Assembly: GCF_036924515.1 (NCBI RefSeq)
Contig: NZ_JAZHRR010000001.1
Span: 3,009,001-3,073,000 of the forward strand
Direction: 5' to 3'
Origin: Bradyrhizobium sp. AZCC 1610
GTDB lineage: Bacteria > Pseudomonadota > Alphaproteobacteria > Rhizobiales > Xanthobacteraceae
DNA length: 64,000 nt
In this document: piece after piece, positions 4,206-51,063 of the stretch
Position numbering within the stretch: the stretch's first letter is position 1
How the letters are laid out: every line of letters begins with the position of its first letter
Program-made: the position numbers and the translations under genes
Notes under the pieces: model-generated
Told to the model about the DNA's origin: nothing
The model's database searches: none
Seen by the model: only the letters and a program-made list of their open reading frames with translations

Positions 4206-4580
4206 TCACACCGGCTCGGCCGGCGTATCTTCGATTGTGATCTTGAAGCGTTGCGACAGATGTCCGCTCGTGGTGGACTGCTCTATCACCAGCGCGTTGC
4301 GCGTCTGCTCGATGGGGCAAAACCCCTTGATGCTAACCAGCTCCTGCAGGAAGTGGCCGATATCCCTGATCGAATAGAGGCGGATGCGATCCCGTGGGCG
4401 ATCATCAAACCGGGCAATAACCTCGTCGAGCTGAGCGCGCAGCGTGCGAGCCTGCTCCAAGGTCAGTACATCGGTTGATCGGGTGCCGCCACGAGGTCCG
4501 ACAACGCACATCATGATCACGTCGGTCTCGCCGTCGTCTACGGCGTAAGGGGAAACGTGGACGTTGATCCAATCCCTCAT
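4206..4580 (-). CDS. Hypothetical protein, 124 aa
   Basis: ATG at 4580 (preceded by GGTGAG) is preferred over ATG at 4592. Soluble mixed alpha/beta protein starting MRDWINVHVSPYAVDDGETD. The centre has a helix typical of small phage regulators (LEQARTLRAQLDEVIARFDD), but no helix-turn-helix can be assigned. Function unknown. Confidence 0.6.
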   Translation of the reverse strand: MRDWINVHVSPYAVDDGETDVIMMCVVGPRGGTRSTDVLTLEQARTLRAQLDEVIARFDDRPRDRIRLYSIRDIGHFLQELVSIKGFCPIEQTRNALVIEQSTTSGHLSQRFKITIEDTPAEPV

Positions 4581-4585
4581 CGAAC

Positions 4586-4993
4586 TCACCATGTTGGGCA
4601 GCCGTCTTCGTCGACGGCGTCGTCAGAGTTGCGCTCCGGCATGTGGTCGATGCTGCCGGGTCCGCCGCTATCGGCGATGATGGTTTCGATCTGGTGGATA
4701 CGCTGCTCGATCACGTCAACATCGCTGTTGACGTTGAACGTACCCATGACTTCCTCGACCTTCAGCATACGGTCGGCGATGGTCACGGCTTCCGGGCGGA
4801 CCCAGCCTTGTCCCTCGACGTAGTCGTAGACCTTCTCGATGATCTCATGGACCGTGAACTCGGGGTGATAGCAGGCCGCCGCATGGAACTGACGCTGCAT
4901 CGCGTCGGTCCAGTCAGACGGCTTGTCCCAGGGGCCGGCTACCATGTCGAGGTCGACAGCCAGGGTCATGGTGATGAAAGCTCGCTTCTTCAT
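4586..4993 (-). CDS. Hypothetical protein, 135 aa
   Basis: ATG at 4993 overlaps the stop of the 154-aa upstream gene (ATGA). Starts MKKRAFITMTLAVDLDMVAG. The C-terminal third looks like a heptad helix (EQRIHQIETIIADSG). Similar small proteins with an initial beta strand occur widely in phages, but I cannot name a family. Confidence 0.6.
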   Translation of the reverse strand: MKKRAFITMTLAVDLDMVAGPWDKPSDWTDAMQRQFHAAACYHPEFTVHEIIEKVYDYVEGQGWVRPEAVTIADRMLKVEEVMGTFNVNSDVDVIEQRIHQIETIIADSGGPGSIDHMPERNSDDAVDEDGCPTW

Positions 4994-5454
4994 GGCAGTT
5001 CCGTCCGTTCTGTTGTCGTTGCGCCGTAGGCGTGGATGTCGCCCCAGCCAATAGCGGCGGATGTTGCGCCGGCCGGCATGATGGGGCATTCGAAGACGCG
5101 GACCTTGTCGGTGATACCAAGCGGGTACTCTTCAAGGTCTTCGTCGTCGCCGATCTCGTAGTAGTCGCGCCAGAACTTGACGGCTTCGCTGGCGTCAGTT
5201 GCCCATACGAAGAGGTCGCGGCTGACCACGCCCTCGTCGTCGACAGGGCATTGATCGTGCGTCGGCGCGACCAGATAAAGCAGACGGTCCATGGGAGGTT
5301 GCGTCTTAGCGTTGAACGCCTGCTCGACGCGCTTGAGCCTTTCGACCTCGGCGAGAGCCGCGTTTGTCGCTTCCTCGGCGCCGTGCTCCGAGTCGACATC
5401 GACACCAAGAGCGTCGTTGAGGTAGTCCATGTAATCGCAGGCAGAGACGGTCAT
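4990..5454 (-). CDS. Hypothetical protein, 154 aa
   Basis: Starts MTVSACDYMDYLNDALGVDV. It has a helical N-terminal half (charged, coiled-coil-like) and a compact C-terminal part with WATDASEAVKFWRDYYE. ATGA overlap with the following gene. Function unknown. Confidence 0.6.
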   Translation of the reverse strand: MTVSACDYMDYLNDALGVDVDSEHGAEEATNAALAEVERLKRVEQAFNAKTQPPMDRLLYLVAPTHDQCPVDDEGVVSRDLFVWATDASEAVKFWRDYYEIGDDEDLEEYPLGITDKVRVFECPIMPAGATSAAIGWGDIHAYGATTTERTELP

Positions 5455-5725: not shown

Positions 5726-6372
5726 CAGCCCCTCCCGAACCATTCGTTAGCCGGGGTCAGGTCGTACTTCTCGCCGAGCCACTTCACGAATTCGGCCGGC
5801 TTCTCGCCGATCTCGAAGGCCTGCTGCATGCGGCTGCCGGTGTAGTTGTTGCGCGACGGGCAATCGTCGGTGACCAGGTCTTCGTACGCCCACTGCTTCA
5901 CGGCCTCCGCCTTGCACTGCCGGATGAACTCGTCGCGCTGGCGGGAGGAGGGAGGGCACGATCCCTTGAACTCCTCGGCCGTGCTGCGGGCTTTGCGATA
6001 GGTATCGACCAGTGCATCGACGCGATCGACCACCGGCTTGAGGTACTCGCTGTGGTCGTCGAACTTGATGCAGTAGAGGATGAACTCCGGAACGAATTCG
6101 AAGTCCCAGCAGATGTCCTCCTGCTCTTTCTCGGTCAGGGAGCACCAGACGTTCTCGATCAGGGGAGACAAGTCCCAGGCGCGGTTGCGCATCGTTGCAG
6201 CGCCGAAGTTGTTGCACCAGTCGGTGATCGACATCTCCGCTTCCTTGAAGGGATGATCCTCCGGAAGCGTGTTGCCGACGATGAGCCGGCTGTCTTCCAG
6301 CACTATGTAGGCCGCCATCGCGGTGTCGATGATCGGATAGGTCGTTGTGATGGTCTCGGGCTGTTTCGCCAT
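5725..6372 (-). CDS. Hypothetical protein, 215 aa
   Basis: Starts MAKQPETITTTYPIIDTAMA. Soluble, with several Trp and Cys. The C-terminal half is helical and ends WLGEKYDLTPANEWFGRG. No recognised domain. Coupled by ATGA to the next gene downstream. Confidence 0.65.
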   Translation of the reverse strand: MAKQPETITTTYPIIDTAMAAYIVLEDSRLIVGNTLPEDHPFKEAEMSITDWCNNFGAATMRNRAWDLSPLIENVWCSLTEKEQEDICWDFEFVPEFILYCIKFDDHSEYLKPVVDRVDALVDTYRKARSTAEEFKGSCPPSSRQRDEFIRQCKAEAVKQWAYEDLVTDDCPSRNNYTGSRMQQAFEIGEKPAEFVKWLGEKYDLTPANEWFGRG

Positions 6373-44949: not shown

Positions 44950-45135
44950 ATGGCAGAGAACTCGAAGCCCGCCGCAACGGCGGGCGACGACGTTCGCTAC
45001 GACGTCAAGCTCTCCGGTCGCATTGAGCTGCATGGCTTCTGGTATCTCCCATCGCACGAGCATGTGGTGGACCAGGTCACGCTCGATGCGATGACGGAGG
45101 CTGGAGTGGTGGCCGATGTCAAGCAACTATCCTGA
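44950..45135 (+). CDS. Hypothetical tail-region protein, 61 aa
   Basis: Starts MAENSKPAATAGDDVRYDVK; a KLSGRIELHGFWYLPSHEHV segment resembles short strand-turn proteins. Overlaps the fibre gene start. Role unknown. Confidence 0.55.
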   Translation: MAENSKPAATAGDDVRYDVKLSGRIELHGFWYLPSHEHVVDQVTLDAMTEAGVVADVKQLS

Positions 45136-46813
45136 GCTGGTCTTCAACGAGACCGATGACTTCACGGCAGATCGATTGAACGCGGCGATGCAGGTGCTGG
45201 ATCAGCGCCTGCGTTCGCTCGAACCTTTCTCACCTTCGTGGGAGGCGGCGGTCAACGAGCTTCGTGCGGTCGGCCTCTCTCGTTTGAACGACGCCATCCT
45301 TCCCGCGTACCAGAGGATCCAACTCCTGTCGGACGTTGGTTTTCTCCAGGCCGCCTCCACAACCGAACTCACCCTGACGGTCGGTCAGAGCCTAACCTTC
45401 GTCATCGACGATGAGACCGAGCGCTCGCTGTTCGTTCCGGGACCATTTCTCGCCATCACCCGAGAGTCGACCACGGCCGACTACGCGATCGCCCAGCGCG
45501 TGTCCTACGACAACGACACGGGCGAGCTGATGGTCGTCATCAAGTCCGTCACCGGCAACCCCGGTCCGTTCTCGGACTGGTGGATCGGCGCCCTCGCAGG
45601 CACGGCTCTCGCCGGCATGTCCTACTTCGCTGCTATCGATGCAGCCAGGGCGGCCACTATCGCTGCCAAGGACACGGCTGTCACCAAGGCGGCTCAGACC
45701 GCCGCTGACCGGGTGCAAACCGGCGCAGACGCAGCATCGGCGTTGTCGTCGAAGATTGCCGCAGCGGCCTCGGCCGCGGCTGCTCAGACCTGGGATCCGT
45801 CGAACTACTACCCCAAGGCGGACATCGACACCAACTTCGCCTTGAAGACGTATGTCGACACCAAGGTGGCCGGTATCGTCAACAGCGCTCCGGCTGCGCT
45901 CGACACGCTCAATGAGTTCGCCGCGGCACTCGGCAACGACGCCAACTTCTCGACGACGATTTCGGCCTCGCTTGGAAACAGGCTGCGGATCGACGTCAAC
46001 AACCAGAACCTGAACGCCACCCAGAAGGCGAACGCCCTGACCAACTTGGGCATCGGTTTCGGGAACCCGACTGTTACGGTCGGTACGGCTGCTCAGAACG
46101 GCAGCGCATCGACCTTCATGCGATCGGACGCCGCTCCGGCGATCAACCAGGCGATGTCACCGAGCTGGACGGGCTCTCATACCTGGACGAACAACATCGG
46201 CGGCTACCTGCAGAACCGCGCGACTTGGTCGAACGTCAATATCTATGCGACAGATAGCCAGGCCGCCGTCGTCACCTTCCATCGCGGCGCTTACGCGATG
46301 CACATGGGCTTGGATCCGGACAACTACTTCCGATGGGGTGGCTGGTCGGACGGCGCAACTGCGCGCATGTACATCAGCCCGGGCGGTCTCATCTACTCGC
46401 CCGGCGGCTATGGTGCAGCGACCACGCCGGTCTCGGGTCAGGTTCGTGCTGCCGGCGACATCGTCTACGGCCTTTCGGACGTTCGTCTGAAGAAGGAAAT
46501 CGAGACCATCGAGAACGCCCTGGACAAGGTAGCGCAGCTTCGCGGCGTGACCTGGGCGCAGAACGAACTGGCCTTGGAAGCCGGAGCGCAAGTGCAGAAG
46601 CGCCGCAAGGCGGGTCTCCTGGCGCAGGACGTCGAGAAGGTGCTGCCTGAAGCCGTCAACCTCGCGCCGTTTGACACGGACGAGGACGGCGAAAGCAGCA
46701 AGTCTGGCCAAAACTACCTGACGATCGATTGGGATCAGACCATCGGTCTGCTGGTCGAGGCGATCAAGGAGTTGAAGGCCAAGGTCGAGAAGCTGGAAGG
46801 GGAGGGGCGCTAA
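45116..46813 (+). CDS. Tail fibre with S74 intramolecular chaperone
   Basis: 565 aa. N-terminal attachment region, Ala-rich helix (AARAATIAAKDTAVTKAAQT), fibre body with repeated strands, and a C-terminal S74/endosialidase-type chaperone: SDVRLKKEIETIENALDKVA, then AGLLAQDVEKVLPEA and a final coiled coil. The chaperone trimerises the fibre and normally cleaves itself at the Ser of the SDxR segment. Host receptor binding expected. Confidence 0.9.
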   Translation: MSSNYPELVFNETDDFTADRLNAAMQVLDQRLRSLEPFSPSWEAAVNELRAVGLSRLNDAILPAYQRIQLLSDVGFLQAASTTELTLTVGQSLTFVIDDETERSLFVPGPFLAITRESTTADYAIAQRVSYDNDTGELMVVIKSVTGNPGPFSDWWIGALAGTALAGMSYFAAIDAARAATIAAKDTAVTKAAQTAADRVQTGADAASALSSKIAAAASAAAAQTWDPSNYYPKADIDTNFALKTYVDTKVAGIVNSAPAALDTLNEFAAALGNDANFSTTISASLGNRLRIDVNNQNLNATQKANALTNLGIGFGNPTVTVGTAAQNGSASTFMRSDAAPAINQAMSPSWTGSHTWTNNIGGYLQNRATWSNVNIYATDSQAAVVTFHRGAYAMHMGLDPDNYFRWGGWSDGATARMYISPGGLIYSPGGYGAATTPVSGQVRAAGDIVYGLSDVRLKKEIETIENALDKVAQLRGVTWAQNELALEAGAQVQKRRKAGLLAQDVEKVLPEAVNLAPFDTDEDGESSKSGQNYLTIDWDQTIGLLVEAIKELKAKVEKLEGEGR

Positions 46814-47061
46814 TGGTTCTTCCGACTTCCGGCGCCGTTGCTTTCTCGTCGGTCAATGGCGAGTTCGGGCGGGGCATCTCAGGGTCAAACTACTACGGCG
46901 TGACCTACTACAAGCTGGTTTGGAATGCGCAGTTCGGCGTGTGGGTACCCGCGTCGGGAACATTCCCGTCCAGCAGCTTCGCGATGTCCAACTTCTACGG
47001 CACGTCGCCAGACGACGAATGGAACTGCGCCTGCAACTGCGACTGCATGTGCGGCAAATGA
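46813..47061 (+). CDS. Small tail-type protein with alternating-Cys C-terminus, 82 aa
   Basis: TAATG overlap with the fibre stop. N-terminus MVLPTSGAVAFSSVNGEFGR and SSSFAMSNFYGTSPDDEWNC match the SG.ISFS.I..EFG...F.MS.FYG pattern of short phage tail-adaptor proteins. The C-terminus is unusual: five Cys at every second position (CACNCDCMC) followed by GK and stop, with Asn and Asp between them. This could be a metal site, a cross-linked tip, or a substrate for the radical SAM and oxygenase enzymes encoded 1.5-3 kb downstream. The last idea is inference from context. Confidence 0.7.
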   Translation: MVLPTSGAVAFSSVNGEFGRGISGSNYYGVTYYKLVWNAQFGVWVPASGTFPSSSFAMSNFYGTSPDDEWNCACNCDCMCGK

Positions 47062-47068
47062 GGAAAAG

Positions 47069-47389
47069 ATGGATCACAAACTGAGCAGCACGTTCACCTA
47101 CAGGATCAATGACTGCAGCCCGGACGGCTGGGCTCGTGTCGAATACCGGCATGAGAAACTCGGTAACCTGGTCAAGAACGTCTTCATCCCGCTGAACCAC
47201 TCGGCGGCCGAACAGCGTGGCGCGATCGTCATGCAGTTCCCATCGACGACTTTTCACGCTCGATGGCTCGATCTGTTGGCGCGGGAGGCCCCTTTGGCCC
47301 CCGCGTCAATGGAGGGCTCGTTCACGCACCGTATCGACCGTCCAATGGAAGATCCGGTCGGTCTGCCATTGGAAACTCACAAGGTTTAA
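47069..47389 (+). CDS. Hypothetical protein, 106 aa
   Basis: ATG at 47069 behind AGGAAAAG. Starts MDHKLSSTFTYRINDCSPDG. A strand-rich soluble protein with one Cys. Follows the alternating-Cys gene by 7 bp and is likely co-translated with the 181-aa gene. Role unknown. Confidence 0.6.
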   Translation: MDHKLSSTFTYRINDCSPDGWARVEYRHEKLGNLVKNVFIPLNHSAAEQRGAIVMQFPSTTFHARWLDLLAREAPLAPASMEGSFTHRIDRPMEDPVGLPLETHKV

Positions 47390-47391
47390 CA

Positions 47392-47937
47392 ATGCAATTC
47401 AGGCGCATCCGTTTCGAAAAGTTCACTGTGACGATCTTCACGGCCCATGCCGGCGAGGAGCGGATCATTCTCCCCTCCGAGTTGACGCGAGGCATGACGG
47501 CTGCCGATGCCGAGCCGATCGCTCACCTTCTCGCGCAGTACCCGGACGCGCACCCGCTGCACACCATCCCGGTTTTCACGAAGGGCGGGTTCGAGGCTCT
47601 CGGCGGCGGCAATCCTCCGGTCCTGCGTCCCGCTGGTAGCGGAGCGGTCCAGTTCGTCAGGGCTATCGACAATTACCGCATGCGAGCGACGGAAGAGGGC
47701 AGCGAATACCACTGCATCACTCCGAGGAGCGAGACTCCAGTGTGGTGGCAGCGCGCGTTCGTCTCCGGCCAGGCCGGCGACACGTTCGACGTGCTGCCGA
47801 AGGAATACCTCTACATCGCCGAGGGGTCCTTTGAGATGGCCGGTCAGACCTTTAGCGGTCCCACGATGCTGGAGATCACCAAGGCCTACACTGCGACGAT
47901 CACGGAGCCGGTGCTGGGCGTCAAGATCTGGCGCTGA
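47392..47937 (+). CDS. Cupin-like hypothetical protein, 181 aa
   Basis: Starts MQFRRIRFEKFTVTIFTAHA. The C-terminal half (FVSGQAGDTFDVLPKEYLYI, AEGSFEMAGQTFSGP, TITEPVLGVKIWR) has the strand pattern and G/P-turns of a cupin barrel, though no metal-binding His cluster is obvious. Overlaps nothing; 2 bp after the previous stop. Function unknown; possibly a partner in the modification cluster. Confidence 0.6.
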   Translation: MQFRRIRFEKFTVTIFTAHAGEERIILPSELTRGMTAADAEPIAHLLAQYPDAHPLHTIPVFTKGGFEALGGGNPPVLRPAGSGAVQFVRAIDNYRMRATEEGSEYHCITPRSETPVWWQRAFVSGQAGDTFDVLPKEYLYIAEGSFEMAGQTFSGPTMLEITKAYTATITEPVLGVKIWR

Positions 47938-47951
47938 AAGGATAATGCACC

Positions 47952-48569
47952 ATGCCAACGATCCGCTTTCTAACGCCCGCTGATTTCGCGGACATGTGCG
48001 ACATCATTGACAAGCACTCCAGCGCGGCGGGCGCATGGTTCAACGACCGGAGCGCTCCGGCTACCGCCAATTTCCGGCAATTGGCCAAAGACCATGCCTG
48101 GCTATGCTTTACCCAGCCGATGTCGAACTTTTGGGGCTACTTCGATGATGCCGGAAAGCTGGTCGCGTGGGTGCTCTTCAACCGCTGGCTCGATCTCACC
48201 AACATCACCCTTCGATTGGTGATCGAAGACCCGGATGCGAACTTGCCGCGGGCCGATGGTGCGATCTGGTCCGACGCGGCGATCGATCTCGTGAACTGGG
48301 GCGTCGGATATTTCTGGTCGGAAGGTATCGAATGCTTTTGGGCTCGCTTGTATCTCGGCCGGGAGTCGTTCCATGTCTCCAGGCAGCCAAACTGCCTACT
48401 GAGCACCTACGAGGCGGAAGCGGTTTTGATTGTGCCGGCTTACAGGGTTCCGCCTGAGGGATACCGCCGAGTCAGTTGGGCTCCGGTAGGGGACCACACC
48501 ATGATCTACAAGTTCAAAGATCCACTGCCGCTGGCAGCGTACGAAGAAAGCTTCAATGATCCGACTTGA
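47952..48569 (+). CDS. GNAT-like acyltransferase, 205 aa
   Basis: Starts MPTIRFLTPADFADMCDIID, a typical first strand-helix of GNAT acetyltransferases. WLCFTQPMSNFWGYFDDAGK, then VAWVLFNRWLDL form the central strands. I do not see a strong Q/R-x-x-G-x-G/A acetyl-CoA loop, so the call is moderate. The stop overlaps the radical SAM start (48556), coupling the two. Confidence 0.55.
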   Translation: MPTIRFLTPADFADMCDIIDKHSSAAGAWFNDRSAPATANFRQLAKDHAWLCFTQPMSNFWGYFDDAGKLVAWVLFNRWLDLTNITLRLVIEDPDANLPRADGAIWSDAAIDLVNWGVGYFWSEGIECFWARLYLGRESFHVSRQPNCLLSTYEAEAVLIVPAYRVPPEGYRRVSWAPVGDHTMIYKFKDPLPLAAYEESFNDPT

Positions 48570-49858
48570 AATGCTGAACAGGAACGGAGAGGTCGTGCCT
48601 CTGTTCTATGACCAGCACACGTCACGACTGACAGAGGTCAACGGCTGGGCTGCTCTTGACATTTCTGGCAATCCCCTTAAGAAGGAAGGCGATTGTGGGC
48701 ATGTGCGGCCCTTCATCGCCGTCGACTACGACGCCCCCGGCCGCAAGACTCGATCCGTCAAAAAGCTCAAGATCCAGCTCGGCCTCGGCTGCAACTATTC
48801 TTGCGCCTACTGTCTCCAAGCGACACAGATCCATAAGGCGGCGGCTTCCTCCACCAGGGACGCCAGCGAGTTCCTTGCGAACATCGACAACTGGATCTCC
48901 GAGCCCGAGGGCATGGAGAAGGTCGAATTCTGGGGCGGCGAGCCGCTCCTCTACTGGAAGAAGATCGAGATCCTCGCCCCGGCGCTGAAGCAGAAGTTTC
49001 CGAACGCCCGCTTCTCGATCATCACGAACGGGTCGCTCCTGACCCGGGAGATCGTCGACAAGCTGAAGGAGTGGGACTTCTCGATGGCGATCAGCCACGA
49101 CGGTCCCGGTCAGAGCGTCCGCGGCGACGATCCGTTCGAGGATCCGAACAAGTTCGCGTTCATCCAGTACGCCTTCAAGCGGCTTCATCCGCGGTTCTCG
49201 TTCAACTCGGTGCTCACGCCCAAAAGTCACGATGTCAACGCCATCATCGACTGGTTCCAGGATTACTTCCCGGGCTGCAACGTCGGCTTTGAGGGAGTGG
49301 TTCACAGCTACGCCAGCGATCCGTCTTCGATCTTCTCGATCGAGCAGCTCCAAGCGTTCAGCGACACATTGTCCCGCCAGCTCGTTGATGGCTCTGCCCT
49401 CAGATCTGGGGCGCTGAGAGAAAAGCTGCGCCGGGCCGTTGGCTCGATCGTGAACGAGCAGTCTTCCGAGGGTCTGTTCCAGAAGTGCGGCATGGACATG
49501 CCGGGAGTACCTGGCGGTCGACCTCAAGGGCAACGTCATGACCTGCCAGAACGTGGGAGCCAATGGCAACCATAAGATCGGGCATGTCAATGACTTCGAG
49601 AACATCGCGCTCAACACGTCGCGCCACTGGAGCAAGCGACCCGAATGCCAGAGCTGCCCAGTTCTGCAGCTTTGCCAGGGTGCCTGCATGTACCAGGGCG
49701 GCGATAACTGGACGCACAGCTGCAACGCCGAGTTCTACTACAACCTGGCGTTCTTCCGGGCTGCGCTCTTCATTCTCACTGGACGTTTGATGGTCGGCTT
49801 CAGCGGAGACATCGTCAGGCCGAAGCTGAAGAAGGACAAAAATGTCGAAGTTCGTTGA
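48556..49858 (+). pseudogene. Radical SAM/SPASM enzyme with one-base frameshift
   Basis: Frame 1 (48556-49575, 339 aa) has the radical SAM motif LGCNYSCAYC (Cys 79, 83, 86), the VEFWGGEP segment and a first auxiliary Cys (QKCGMDM), then becomes nonsense after 49,500. The next frame supplies the missing end: REYLAVDLKGNVMTCQNVGA (GX4C), then CQSCPVLQLCQGAC (C-x2-C-x5-C-x3-C) and a final Cys, a complete SPASM domain ending at 49858. One extra base around 49501 (ATG-C-CGG-GAG) restores one protein of about 433 aa. SPASM enzymes modify peptides (thioether bonds, Cys/Asp side chains). Either a +1 frameshift at a Pro codon, a recent mutation or a sequence error. Confidence 0.8.
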
Positions 49859-50579
49859 GCTGTCTGCAAAGCTGGACAAGATCCCGCACCTCTATCTCGG
49901 TCGCGCCTTCGAGGCTTCCAGGCTGCAAGCAGAGCTGGCCTCTATCGATCCAGCGCTGTTTGTGCCGTTTCGATCGAAGAGCCGGCACACTGGGTATCTA
50001 GCGAAATTCTGGCACGGGCTATCTCTGGTAGCCCCTGGCGGCTCTATCCATGGCGATCTGACCGAGGAGGGATATGCCGGCAGGACAGACTCGCAATGGA
50101 CGCCTGTTGCTGAACAGAGCCCATACATGAAGGAAGTGGTCGCTGATCTTGGTGGAGAAGGGCAACGAGTCAGGCTGATGTGCGTAAGGGCAGGCGGAAG
50201 CTTTCCCTGGCATCGCCATGGTACAGAGATTCCCTTGAATGCCAAGGGCATGCGTCCGAACTGGTACGAGGTGATCGTTCATCTTCCGGTCAAGTCTAAC
50301 CCTCAGGTCAGCTACGAGGTCATCGAAGCATCGGTCTACGAGTTGAGCGACTACTCGGCCGGGATCGAGATCCACAAGCGCAACTATCCGGAAGGTGAGG
50401 CCTGGGTTTTCAATGCCGCCCACTACCACAACGTCTTCAACCGCTCCGCGACCGAAGACCGCTACTCCATCATGCTGACCCTCGACATCAGGATGAGGAA
50501 GACCTTCGACATCGTCTCGAAAGCGGTCGAGCGGTACATCGCAAACCAAGAGGGGCCTTTGCTCGAAAAGAAGGCTTAA
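49842..50579 (+). CDS. Aspartyl/asparaginyl beta-hydroxylase-like 2OG oxygenase
   Basis: 245 aa; the start overlaps the end of the radical SAM frame by 17 bp. Contains CVRAGGSFPWHRHGTEIP (His 124, 126) and AWVFNAAHYHNVFNRSATED (His 194, 196), the iron-binding and 2-oxoglutarate-binding pattern of the Asp_Arg_Hydrox family (cupin fold). These enzymes hydroxylate Asp, Asn or Arg side chains in proteins. Inference: acts on a virion or tail protein encoded nearby. Confidence 0.75.
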   Translation: MSKFVELSAKLDKIPHLYLGRAFEASRLQAELASIDPALFVPFRSKSRHTGYLAKFWHGLSLVAPGGSIHGDLTEEGYAGRTDSQWTPVAEQSPYMKEVVADLGGEGQRVRLMCVRAGGSFPWHRHGTEIPLNAKGMRPNWYEVIVHLPVKSNPQVSYEVIEASVYELSDYSAGIEIHKRNYPEGEAWVFNAAHYHNVFNRSATEDRYSIMLTLDIRMRKTFDIVSKAVERYIANQEGPLLEKKA

Positions 50580-50583
50580 TCGC

Positions 50584-51009
50584 ATGGAAAGCATCCTCAG
50601 CTGGAGCCCTCCGGTTGTTCTGGATGACGACATCAAGGTCGCCACCAACGAAGACTGGGCAAGGGAATATCAGCTTCAAGACGGTGAGGGGTCGCCGATC
50701 AGCATCGGCATGGATTGGAAGTTCTTCATGCAACTTCAGTCCGCCGACAACGGCGCCCTCGTCATGACGAATTCAACCGAAAATCAGCGGCTCGCCGTTA
50801 TCGATCGAGCTGCTGGCAAATACGGCCTCAGGGTGAGGCAGGCGGACGCCGCCCAAGTCACCCCGGGCGGCTACCTCTATGACATCGTCCTCGTTGCTGG
50901 CGATGGCATCTACCGCCTCGTGAGAGGTACCATCACGGTACAGAAGGGCATCACCAATGTCCCTGGCCAGGAGAAGTGGTCTCACTTCCCCCTGATCCTG
51001 CGACCGTAA
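50584..51009 (+). CDS. Hypothetical structural protein, 141 aa
   Basis: Starts MESILSWSPPVVLDDDIKVA. Beta-rich pattern (NGALVMTNSTENQRLAVIDR) like a phage collar or tail-side protein. Follows the oxygenase by 4 bp and precedes a terminator, so it ends the fibre/modification transcript. Function unknown. Confidence 0.6.
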   Translation: MESILSWSPPVVLDDDIKVATNEDWAREYQLQDGEGSPISIGMDWKFFMQLQSADNGALVMTNSTENQRLAVIDRAAGKYGLRVRQADAAQVTPGGYLYDIVLVAGDGIYRLVRGTITVQKGITNVPGQEKWSHFPLILRP

Positions 51010-51038
51010 CAAACATCGCCAACACCAACCTCACACAA

Positions 51039-51063
51039 GCCGCCCCTCTCGGGCGGCTTTTTT
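51039..51063 (+). terminator. Rho-independent terminator
   Basis: GCCGCCC (51039-51045) pairs with GGGCGGC (51051-51057), followed by six Ts. Separates the fibre/modification unit from the tail sheath. Confidence 0.9.

Follow-up and report, generated by a model that had tools for sequence, protein, structure and literature searches.

The window, i.e. the whole stretch of 64,000 nucleotides that we analysed, carries genes of a contractile-tail prophage, in which a tail fibre gene lies directly upstream of the block of genes listed in Table 1; the next genes in the window are tail genes. Re-reading the window bore out the genes, gene order, and coordinates of the initial annotation, which is confirmed in part: the block is real, with some corrections, and the pattern it represents extends far past the window. 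At the loci of relatives of its radical SAM gene, tail genes are likewise found on one side and, in many cases, lysis genes on the other.

Table 1. Genes and features of the prophage block, with positions in the window
Feature	Position	Strand	Evidence
Tail fibre with C-terminal Peptidase_S74 intramolecular chaperone	45116..46813	+	PF13884, 57 bits (cut-off 22); PHROG tail fibre matches
Small tail-type protein, 82 aa, "LPTSG...FYG" type, proposed substrate	46813..47061	+	relatives keep the invariant Cys
Cysteine ladder C-A-C-N-C-D-C-M-C, then Gly-Lys-stop	47026..47052	+	five Cys invariant in 7/7 aligned homologues
Block-conserved protein, 106 aa	47069..47389	+	no Pfam/PHROGs family; dN/dS 0.13–0.23
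Protein, 181 aa	47392..47937	+	no Pfam/PHROGs family; dN/dS 0.15–0.32
Protein, 205 aa, overlapping the radical SAM start	47952..48569	+	no Pfam/PHROGs family; dN/dS 0.12–0.25
First piece of broken frame, with the radical SAM core (CxxxCxxC) plus the first Cys of SPASM	48556..49575	+	PF04055; phrog_1802, 6e-38; intact in relatives
Remaining SPASM domain, second piece, other frame	49538..49858	+	phrog_1802, 1.3e-10; dN/dS 0.05–0.11 in own frame
Aspartyl/asparaginyl beta-hydroxylase-like 2OG oxygenase	49842..50579	+	PF05118, 24.3 bits (cut-off 22.6)
Phage protein, last gene before the hairpin	50584..51009	+	phrog_1084; weaker tail-fibre-assembly match; Ig_J below cut-off
Terminator-like hairpin, strong	51037..51059	+	such sites no more numerous in the region than in shuffles

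Two functional labels did not survive. The 205-aa protein had been called GNAT-like, but it has no Pfam or PHROGs family at E 0.1 and no meaningful match in a PDB profile search, and we reject the label as unsupported. The cupin label of the 181-aa protein is rejected on similar grounds, i.e. no match in Pfam, PHROGs, or further profile search. The block had also been thought to end at a terminator; a hairpin is indeed present, but an extra gene precedes it, and the region has no more terminator-like hairpins than shuffled sequences do.

The cysteine ladder and its radical SAM neighbor

The 82-aa protein ends in EWNCACNCDCMCGK. Its five Cys are invariant while the residues between them vary among the 7 aligned homologues, and the genes of the block show dN/dS values of 0.05–0.49 against four relatives, so the ladder is more than a chance run. 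Across the whole window, CxCxCxC is found in only two stop-to-stop stretches, i.e. this gene and positions 5751–5870, which encode 40 arginine-rich residues with no gene-like signs. Homology and gene order suggest that the 82-aa protein is a virion component; at another locus (L002; fibre type judged by eye), a distant homologue that lacks the Cys end is likewise encoded after a fibre.

The neighboring enzyme had been described as a radical SAM protein with a full SPASM domain. Both domains are present (PF04055, 55.5 bits, cut-off 29.5) and both pieces belong to phrog_1802, but the gene is broken across two frames, which divides the SPASM domain after its first Cys, and a search of the phage's own host genome recovers it as the same two pieces. 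A programmed frameshift is rejected because ten close relatives (L004–L012 and L022) read through in a single open frame of 432–455 aa. Both halves are under purifying selection, each in its own frame, and the break is therefore either recent or an assembly error. With this frame broken, the module in the window is probably inactive or mis-assembled. An intact module is found, for example, in Achromobacter phage JWF (tail fibre YP_009224034.1, enzyme YP_009224036.1), where the ladder precedes a Hint domain.

Among 64 enzymes, the CxxxCxxC motif and seven further Cys are invariant, and the SPASM model TIGR04085 reaches 39.9 bits in L011 (cut-off 27). For the five phage enzymes that we scanned against NCBIfam, the top scores are peptide maturases, and the PapB ranthipeptide maturase model (NF047865) is the best for four and the second for the fifth, at 82.1, 70.3, 55, 71.5, and 59.4 bits against a cut-off of 340. 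Every named maturase family has a cut-off far above the scores of these enzymes, so family matches do not reveal the chemistry.

Ladders and enzymes are found together in both directions

Relatives of the enzyme were sampled as the best 80 of at least 390 confirmed, plus 80 of 110 (79 loci). From 178 radical SAM loci (L004–L181) we left out two in which the pattern found no enzyme frame (L040 and L126) and 59 that were >90% identical, resulting in 117 dereplicated loci, and then another 33 with short flanks, resulting in 84; among those 33, 21 also carry a ladder or a CxxC repeat. With a ladder defined as at least four alternating cysteines, one is present on the same strand at 67 of the 84 loci among the matches listed, compared with 6 of 84 on the opposite strand. 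When all 117 dereplicated loci are considered, 92 of 106 same-strand ladders lie 0–3 kb upstream of the enzyme. Loci with two enzymes may be enriched for CxxC repeats (6/11 vs. 6/106; P = 1e-4, in a post hoc comparison that ignores relatedness).

The reverse search used a DNA pattern of the ladder alone, blind to the enzyme, and returned at least 120 stretches. Among the matches listed, an enzyme is located beside 29 of 120 stretches, while a serine control gives 0 of 71 (P = 4e-7). A "plausible gene" filter, set after the list had been viewed, keeps 38 of the 120 stretches, i.e. those whose frame is 70 aa or longer, or 40 aa or longer when it runs off the edge; with this post hoc filter, and again among the matches listed, 23 of the 24 ladder genes with at least 2.5 kb of downstream DNA have the enzyme. 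Of the distinct enzymes recovered in this manner, 13 of 23 are under 90% identity to any enzyme from the forward search. Chance Cys runs are rejected by the opposite-strand and serine controls. The initial annotation had proposed the Cys end of the tail protein as the site where the enzymes act, and had asked whether ladder and enzyme genes co-occur in other phages; they do, with a 2OG oxygenase also accompanying the radical SAM enzyme at 52 of the 84 loci, and co-occurrence from both starting points strongly supports the proposal.

Loci that keep the enzymes and lose the ladder had been named as evidence against that proposal. This is not the main pattern, but 16 of the 84 enzyme loci do lack the motif. 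Six of these (L110, L112, L116, L118, L119, and L179) form one clade that is mostly found beside YcaO genes and not in phages, and we think that the motif match of another member of this YcaO-adjacent clade (L115) is spurious. Two others (L120 and L163) have irregular Cys-rich ends, and one (L035) is on the same contig as L036, which has a ladder. The remaining seven are truly without a ladder (L016, L027, L068, L125, L154, L156, and L171).

Ladder position and accompanying genes

Ladders follow the formula (Cys-X)n, where X is mostly Asn, Ala, Lys, or Asp, and are carried by different scaffolds, e.g. the 82-aa tail protein, a 320-aa fibre family, Hint proteins, and S74 proteins. At 85 dereplicated loci with a ladder, its position is C-terminal in 63, before a Hint domain in 9, before a Peptidase_S74 domain in 2, and other in 11. 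As such, a minority of ladders stop at, or no more than about 8 residues from, one of two domains that are both of self-processing kinds, and processing would expose the ladder as the mature C-terminus. Hom_end_hint scores 46.6 bits in L001 and S74 50.6 bits in L059, and several Hint matches are under the Pfam cut-off. The first Cys of the Hint domain is found in 11 of 11 proteins, which were chosen for showing the Hint start and thus partly reflect selection, and a TxxH-like motif is found in 7 of the 11 and missing in 4. To explain the Hint arrangement, the enzyme tree requires 7 changes, and well-supported branches force 4 of these.

The Asp/Asn-hydroxylase-like oxygenase reported in the window stands, with a score above the gathering cut-off (Table 1) and His and Arg positions that are invariant in 9 homologues. 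Among 296 genomes of the host's family, the window type of oxygenase is present in only one, which is the window's own. Across the loci, oxygenases belong to PF13759, PF05118, and PF13640; none is detected at 20 of 68 motif loci, including those with Lys-rich ladders (L059–L061), and their presence is not associated with how much Asn/Asp the ladder contains (P = 0.44). The Cys protein and the oxygenase each occur in duplicate at L011/L103. Another family, F307, is present at 51 of the 84 loci. Its identity as a known enzyme is rejected, as three members have no Pfam or PHROG family and no weighty PDB match; one of 22 members has a weak Big_1 match.

A proposed module for tail tip maturation

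These loci bring together a phage tail-type protein with a terminal ladder of alternating Cys, an adjoining and dedicated radical SAM/SPASM gene, and, often, an Fe(II)/2OG oxygenase. Judging from sequence, we consider it likely that these genes form a phage module for modification of the tail protein's terminal ladder. The radical SAM enzyme would likely act on the ladder during tail building, and its product would plausibly be a set of thioethers joining Cys sulfur atoms to carbon atoms of residues close by, given that such links are made by PapB, SCIFF, and other SPASM maturases with Cys targets, which are the closest named enzymes. The oxygenase might hydroxylate residues between the cysteines, perhaps Asn/Asp, host binding might be altered, and the result would be a rigid, chemically hardened fibre end or tail tip where the phage meets the host surface.

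It is also conceivable, though unlikely, that a trimeric tip has metal or Fe-S bound to the ladders along its axis, with the neighboring enzymes having an indirect role or another target. This would fit the strict (C-X)n periodicity of the CK ladders, which have 25–27 Cys across tens of residues, and the HxH iron sites that are described for phage fibres in PMC11705849; yet the residue is Cys and not His, and a simple metal ligand requires no radical SAM/SPASM maturase of the kind paired with the ladder in 23 of 24 cases (filtered reverse test, among the matches listed). The enzyme could instead work in the manner of an anaerobic sulfatase maturase, oxidising ladder Cys to aldehydes and creating a reactive, adhesive tip. 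Sulfatase targets carry a CxPxR motif, which is not seen in the listed ladders, and sulfatase-maturase models score 39.8–50.9 bits, i.e. lower than PapB (55–82.1 bits) in all five enzymes scanned. As such, we regard formylglycine formation as highly improbable, even though one of two JWF records labels the enzyme an anaerobic sulfatase-maturating enzyme and the closest PDB structures include those of anSME (4k36, E 2.7e-20).

The least probable of these readings is that the radical SAM enzyme and oxygenase have another target, either elsewhere in the tail or a molecule of the host, with the Cys-rich tail protein next to them forming extracellular disulfides. Tail regions do accumulate modular genes, and the 16 enzyme loci with no ladder could be read in this manner, but the ladder travels with the enzyme across differing tail-protein scaffolds, and the reverse test began from the ladder alone.

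Returning to modification of the ladder itself, we lean toward a broader view, in which tailed phages that infect many different hosts use radical SAM chemistry on periodic cysteine ladders (CxC and CxxC, and CxxxC in jumbo phages, e.g. SPN3US) to harden or arm the tips of their tails, with interchangeable exposure devices (an encoded C-terminus, Hint, or S74) and often a 2OG oxygenase. Virion maturation of this class would be undescribed, with chemistry of the natural-product type building the part that contacts the host. If this is true, the phage adsorption apparatus partly carries covalent chemistry that is invisible to sequence-based models of tail fibres, phage radical SAM genes so far without a role acquire one, and a large natural collection of Cys-ladder maturases exists for peptide cross-linking. 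The idea is testable on cultured phages, i.e. JWF and, for the CxxxC type, SPN3US with its two CxxxC proteins.

Comparison with known systems

A literature search found no description of a phage system of this composition, as the initial annotation had stated, and no case of a radical SAM enzyme acting in the maturation of a virion structural protein. Regular alternation of metal-ligand-type residues in a fibre tip is shared with the iron needle of T4 gp37, for which we know of no maturase. There, the residues are His and not Cys, and the His-X-His motifs of the tip bind iron, according to PMC11705849.

RiPPs consist of a leader and a core that are modified and then proteolytically released. 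At these loci, neither a leader peptide nor a release protease or peptide-releasing step was identified, and the Hint and S74 cases would release a C-terminal cap rather than a leader. The likeness to hedgehog- or intein-like Hint domains and to Peptidase_S74 self-processing domains is that such domains follow the ladder at some loci; here, they appear to be removable caps that would expose it.

PapB targets have spacing of the Cx3D type, and the ladders do not. The phage enzymes share the SPASM domain of PapB, which is the best or second NCBIfam model for all five, but they reach only 55–82 of the 340 bits, and what they target is not a short precursor peptide but a virion-type protein. PapB itself links Cys to Asp or Glu (PMC9413430).

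The CXXX-repeat target/maturase pair (TIGR04114, TIGR04115, and TIGR04117) likewise encodes a radical SAM peptide maturase with a protein of regular Cys repeats. The window type differs in its period of 2 (CxC), its location on tail proteins, and its phrog_1802 enzymes, and the CxC type falls outside this family: TIGR04114 matches neither P0001 nor the seven other CxC-type ladder proteins scanned, and TIGR04115 (cut-off 350) is not one of the top 25 models for five CxC-type enzymes, where the best score is 82.1 bits. Jumbo phages were picked as negative controls, and two of the three carry CxxxC ladders. Among the jumbo-phage loci, the target at L394 scores 25.7 bits against the CXXX-repeat target model (cut-off 20), while at L396 two targets score 18.4 and 16.4 bits, and the enzyme there reaches 125.6 bits (cut-off 350). 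Pairs of a radical SAM enzyme and a target with Cys repeats are an already known arrangement, on which the phage tail loci are a variation.

A prophage tail module with a split radical SAM gene

The genome (7.75 Mb, single contig) carries in the window a contractile-tail prophage, with PHROG matches to large terminase, portal, scaffold, baseplate, sheath, and endolysin. Its module, i.e. a protein with a run of alternating cysteines (the ladder), a radical SAM/SPASM enzyme, and a 2OG oxygenase, is flanked by tail genes on both sides, unlike other loci. Of the relatives fetched for the module, the closest one with a name lies in a Bradyrhizobium hipponense contig (L103). The initial annotation had described an enzyme with a full SPASM domain; we find that its gene is broken into two pieces, and a profile search of the host genome returned just these, with no second copy of the gene. 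In 10 close relatives (L004–L012 and L022; 77–81% identical), the gene is one open frame of 432–455 aa. Because dN/dS is low in both halves (0.05–0.21 against four relatives) and the relatives are unbroken, either selection acted on the gene until recently or the break was introduced by misassembly.

Gene order is constant in relatives with enough DNA: Cys protein, 106-aa, 181-aa, and 205-aa proteins, radical SAM enzyme, and oxygenase. Across 7 aligned Cys proteins the five ladder cysteines never vary, while most positions between them switch among N, D, A, and M. Apart from the ladder cysteines, the Cys protein evolves fastest in the block (dN/dS 0.29–0.49). Both it and the oxygenase are doubled in the relative L011 and its named copy L103, the two duplications paralleling each other in one phage; L010, whose start is missing from the sequence, has two oxygenases as well.

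Features of the window module and of comparable loci (positions in the window or in the fetched locus)
Feature	Position	Remark
Tail fibre with Peptidase_S74 chaperone	window 45116-46813	5' of module
82-aa Cys protein, C-terminal end EWNCACNCDCMCGK		directly after S74 tail fibre
Proteins of 106, 181, and 205 aa		between 82-aa Cys protein and radical SAM/SPASM gene
Radical SAM gene, piece 1	window 48556-49575	SAM core and first SPASM cysteine
Radical SAM gene, piece 2	window 49538-49858	remainder of SPASM; different frame from piece 1
PF05118 oxygenase gene		3' of radical SAM/SPASM gene
One more phage gene	window 50584-51009	before terminator-like hairpin
Strong terminator-like hairpin		after 50584-51009 gene; then tail sheath gene
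Tandem Cys proteins	L011 4348-4581, 4594-4812
Tandem oxygenases	L011 8283-9020, 9020-9769
F307 members	L141 5968-6774; L013 5057-5980; and relatives	alignment A3
Lysine-ladder proteins	L059 2116-2910; L060 2811-3518; L061 1490-2230
Protein with Cys-rich middle	L084 10392-11270
CxxxC array protein pair	L394 6996-7385, 7394-7822	just upstream of two radical SAM genes
CxxxC array protein pair	L396 6965-7357, 7368-7769	just upstream of two radical SAM genes
CxxxC array protein pairs	L398, L399, L400, about 4501-5308	just upstream of two radical SAM genes
CC_R7 protein with CxxC repeat run	L397 150-872	about 9 kb from radical SAM gene

Co-occurrence of ladders and enzymes

The enzyme query gave 178 loci (L004–L181) among the matches listed (including the best 80 of 390 and 80 of 110); the enzyme frame is present in 176, 117 remain after dropping those >90% identical, and 84 of these, with flanks of at least 4 kb upstream and at least 2 kb downstream, form the test set. 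A same-strand ladder of at least four alternating cysteines is found in 67 of these 84 listed loci, and in 62 it is no more than 4 kb upstream or 2 kb downstream of the enzyme; opposite-strand ladders clear of any same-strand ladder occur in 6. A tally based on open frames, with CxxC repeats included, has a motif in 68 of the 84 listed loci (36 of 40 from viral contigs and 32 of 44 from genomes). Across the 117 listed loci, 92 of 106 same-strand ladders sit 0–3 kb upstream of the enzyme. The in-between residues of ladders among the matches listed (n = 421) include N (187), A (74), K (55), and D (48).

The reverse query, a DNA pattern blind to the enzyme (N-C-x-C-x-C-x-C-x-C-stop), returned at least 120 stretches from viral contigs. 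Among the matches listed, the enzyme is present in 29 of 120, always on the same strand, compared with 0 of 71 stretches carrying the identical pattern with serine replacing cysteine (Fisher P = 4e-7). Most of the 120 listed stretches are chance matches in tiny frames. A post hoc filter (minimum frame length 70 aa, or 40 aa where the frame runs off the edge) is passed by 38 of them, 24 with at least 2.5 kb downstream; in these 24 listed, post hoc-filtered stretches the enzyme is found in 23, the oxygenase in 16, and F307, a protein family recurring beside ladder and enzyme, in 17. The sole enzyme-free stretch (L183) is a low-complexity poly-Cys frame. Clustered at 90% identity, the 29 reverse-found enzymes among the matches listed form 23 groups, and 13 of these have no 90% counterpart in the forward set.

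A third pattern, C-x-C-x-C immediately followed by a Hint start, matched 17 stretches, with the enzyme nearby in 12; whole-record checks of four of the other five located it elsewhere in the record for 3 (L303, L306, and L312) and nowhere in the 22.8-kb record of L305. When four ladder records were checked in the same way, L196 had the enzyme and L227 a weak match (E = 2.9e-21), and the fragments L236 and L186 had none.

Ladder position

Over 85 dereplicated ladder-bearing loci among the matches listed, the ladder lies at most 16 residues from the stop codon in 63, before a Hint domain in 9 (six directly, three via a spacer of up to about 8 residues), directly before Peptidase_S74 in 2, before another uncharacterised domain in 6, and otherwise in 5. 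Hint exceeds the Pfam cut-off (32.1) in Achromobacter phage 2-1 (46.6 bits) and L049 (34.5 bits), other Hint matches scoring under it; S74 in L059 reaches 50.6 bits (Pfam). All 11 proteins of a set chosen for the Hint start have its first cysteine, and in 7 of the 11 a TxxH-like motif stands at the usual distance. The Hint label requires 7 changes on a 107-enzyme tree, at least 4 of these by well-supported branches, and the arrangement has therefore been gained or lost several times. Because Hint and S74 domains self-cleave in characterised proteins, the ladder would become the mature C-terminus in these cases too.

Three proteins (L059, L060, and L061) have ladders of 25–27 cysteines alternating mostly with lysine; directly after the ladder comes a Peptidase_S74-type chaperone in L059, according to Pfam, and in L061, according to a pattern match. 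Proteins of L084, L064, L069, L074, L075, and L079 share the N-terminal type of the window's 82-aa protein, followed by a Cys-rich middle and a conserved ~165-aa C-terminal domain (SKIICxKLY...); a Pfam scan of the L084 protein gave no family.

Enzyme family and other cysteine spacings

The CxxxCxxC cysteines and seven further SPASM-type cysteines are invariant in 64 diverse enzymes. Among NCBIfam models, peptide maturases score highest, PapB foremost, and because the PapB score is at most 82.1 bits against a cut-off of 340, the phage ladder enzymes fall outside named maturase families. The nearest solved chains are 8vpo, the anaerobic sulfatase maturase 4k36, and 5wgg. No credible ladder accompanies one clade of seven enzymes (L110, L112, L115, L116, L118, L119, and L179; four Variovorax, two Ramlibacter, and one gammaproteobacterium). 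In 6 of 7 loci the enzyme is closely preceded by a homologue of the YcaO-nitroreductase protein of L179, L116 having no match. Such YcaO-type settings are typical of bacterial modified-peptide clusters, not of phage tails, and suggest that this clade represents a bacterial modified-peptide cluster.

Two-enzyme loci (e.g. L014, L015, L018, L021, L108, and L175) are richer in CxxC (CSYC) repeats: 6 of 11 vs 6 of 106 others among the matches listed, a difference seen post hoc with kinship ignored. The excess may reflect one enzyme per cysteine spacing.

Three phages were chosen as controls for other radical SAM genes. Two of them, Erwinia phage pEa_SNUABM_11 and Salmonella phage SPFM16, carry two radical SAM genes each, preceded by two small proteins with 20–23 cysteines in C-terminal CxxxC arrays that annotation missed or read in another frame. 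SPN3US, phiEaH2, and EarlPhillipIV have a matching pair of arrays and pair of enzymes; the EarlPhillipIV annotation has the first array in the right frame, under the label hypothetical protein. These are SPN3US-like Salmonella and Erwinia jumbo phages. The start of one CxxxC protein matches 72 phage records (arrays themselves examined in five), and, of three CxxxC proteins scanned, one scores above the cut-off of the NCBIfam model for radical SAM CXXX targets. The third control, Campylobacter phage CC_R7, has no CxxxC array beside its enzyme; a hypothetical protein with a CxxC repeat run lies elsewhere in its sequence.

Partner genes and proposed action

A 2OG oxygenase is present in 52 of the 84 listed loci: PF13759-type in 46, PF05118-type (as in the window) in 4, and PF13640-type in 9, 8 of them with PF13759 as well. 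PF13759 and PF05118 types never co-occur among the matches listed; the phrog_81-type model matches in 33 of these loci, overlapping PF13759 in 32. F307 (~270–320 aa) is found in 51 of the 84 listed loci, usually 1–3 kb upstream of the enzyme, and is without known relatives (weak Big_1 match in 1 of 22 members); its best-conserved portion is the C-terminal part. Among the 117 listed loci, a tail-fibre-like family recurs in 54, a neighbour in 27 is read as tail tip J, and small downstream recurrent neighbours are read as holin, spanin, and endolysin. Achromobacter phages 2-1 and JWF have an annotated tail protein upstream of the module and endolysin downstream.

The initial annotation had proposed that both enzymes modify the Cys/Asn/Asp-rich end of the tail protein. 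Judging from gene association, the radical SAM enzyme very probably acts on the ladder protein, and a host-facing tail tip is, by a slight preference, the predicted place of action. By analogy, thioether links have about an even chance of being among the product features. Hydroxylation of ladder residues by the oxygenase is a more doubtful proposal, and the idea of Asn/Asp as its target is weakened, because oxygenase presence has no link to the ladder Asn/Asp fraction (means 0.68 and 0.59 in 41 and 16 loci, P = 0.44). As an alternative to enzymatic modification, or conceivably combined with it, ladders may bind metal or Fe-S along the axis of a trimeric tail tip.

Comparison with described systems

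Among the top-ranked papers in PMC searches, no title or abstract opening deals with radical SAM maturation of tail proteins or with such ladders; because most subscription papers and all bioRxiv preprints fall outside PMC, the module is undescribed as far as that literature goes. In passages of individual papers, a radical SAM gene is merely listed (PMC10783043), HxH iron motifs are described (PMC11705849), inteins in terminase and ribonucleotide reductase are the subject (PMC3556154), and two pelagimyophages differ in their host-recognition cluster by radical SAM gene cassettes (PMC7029224).
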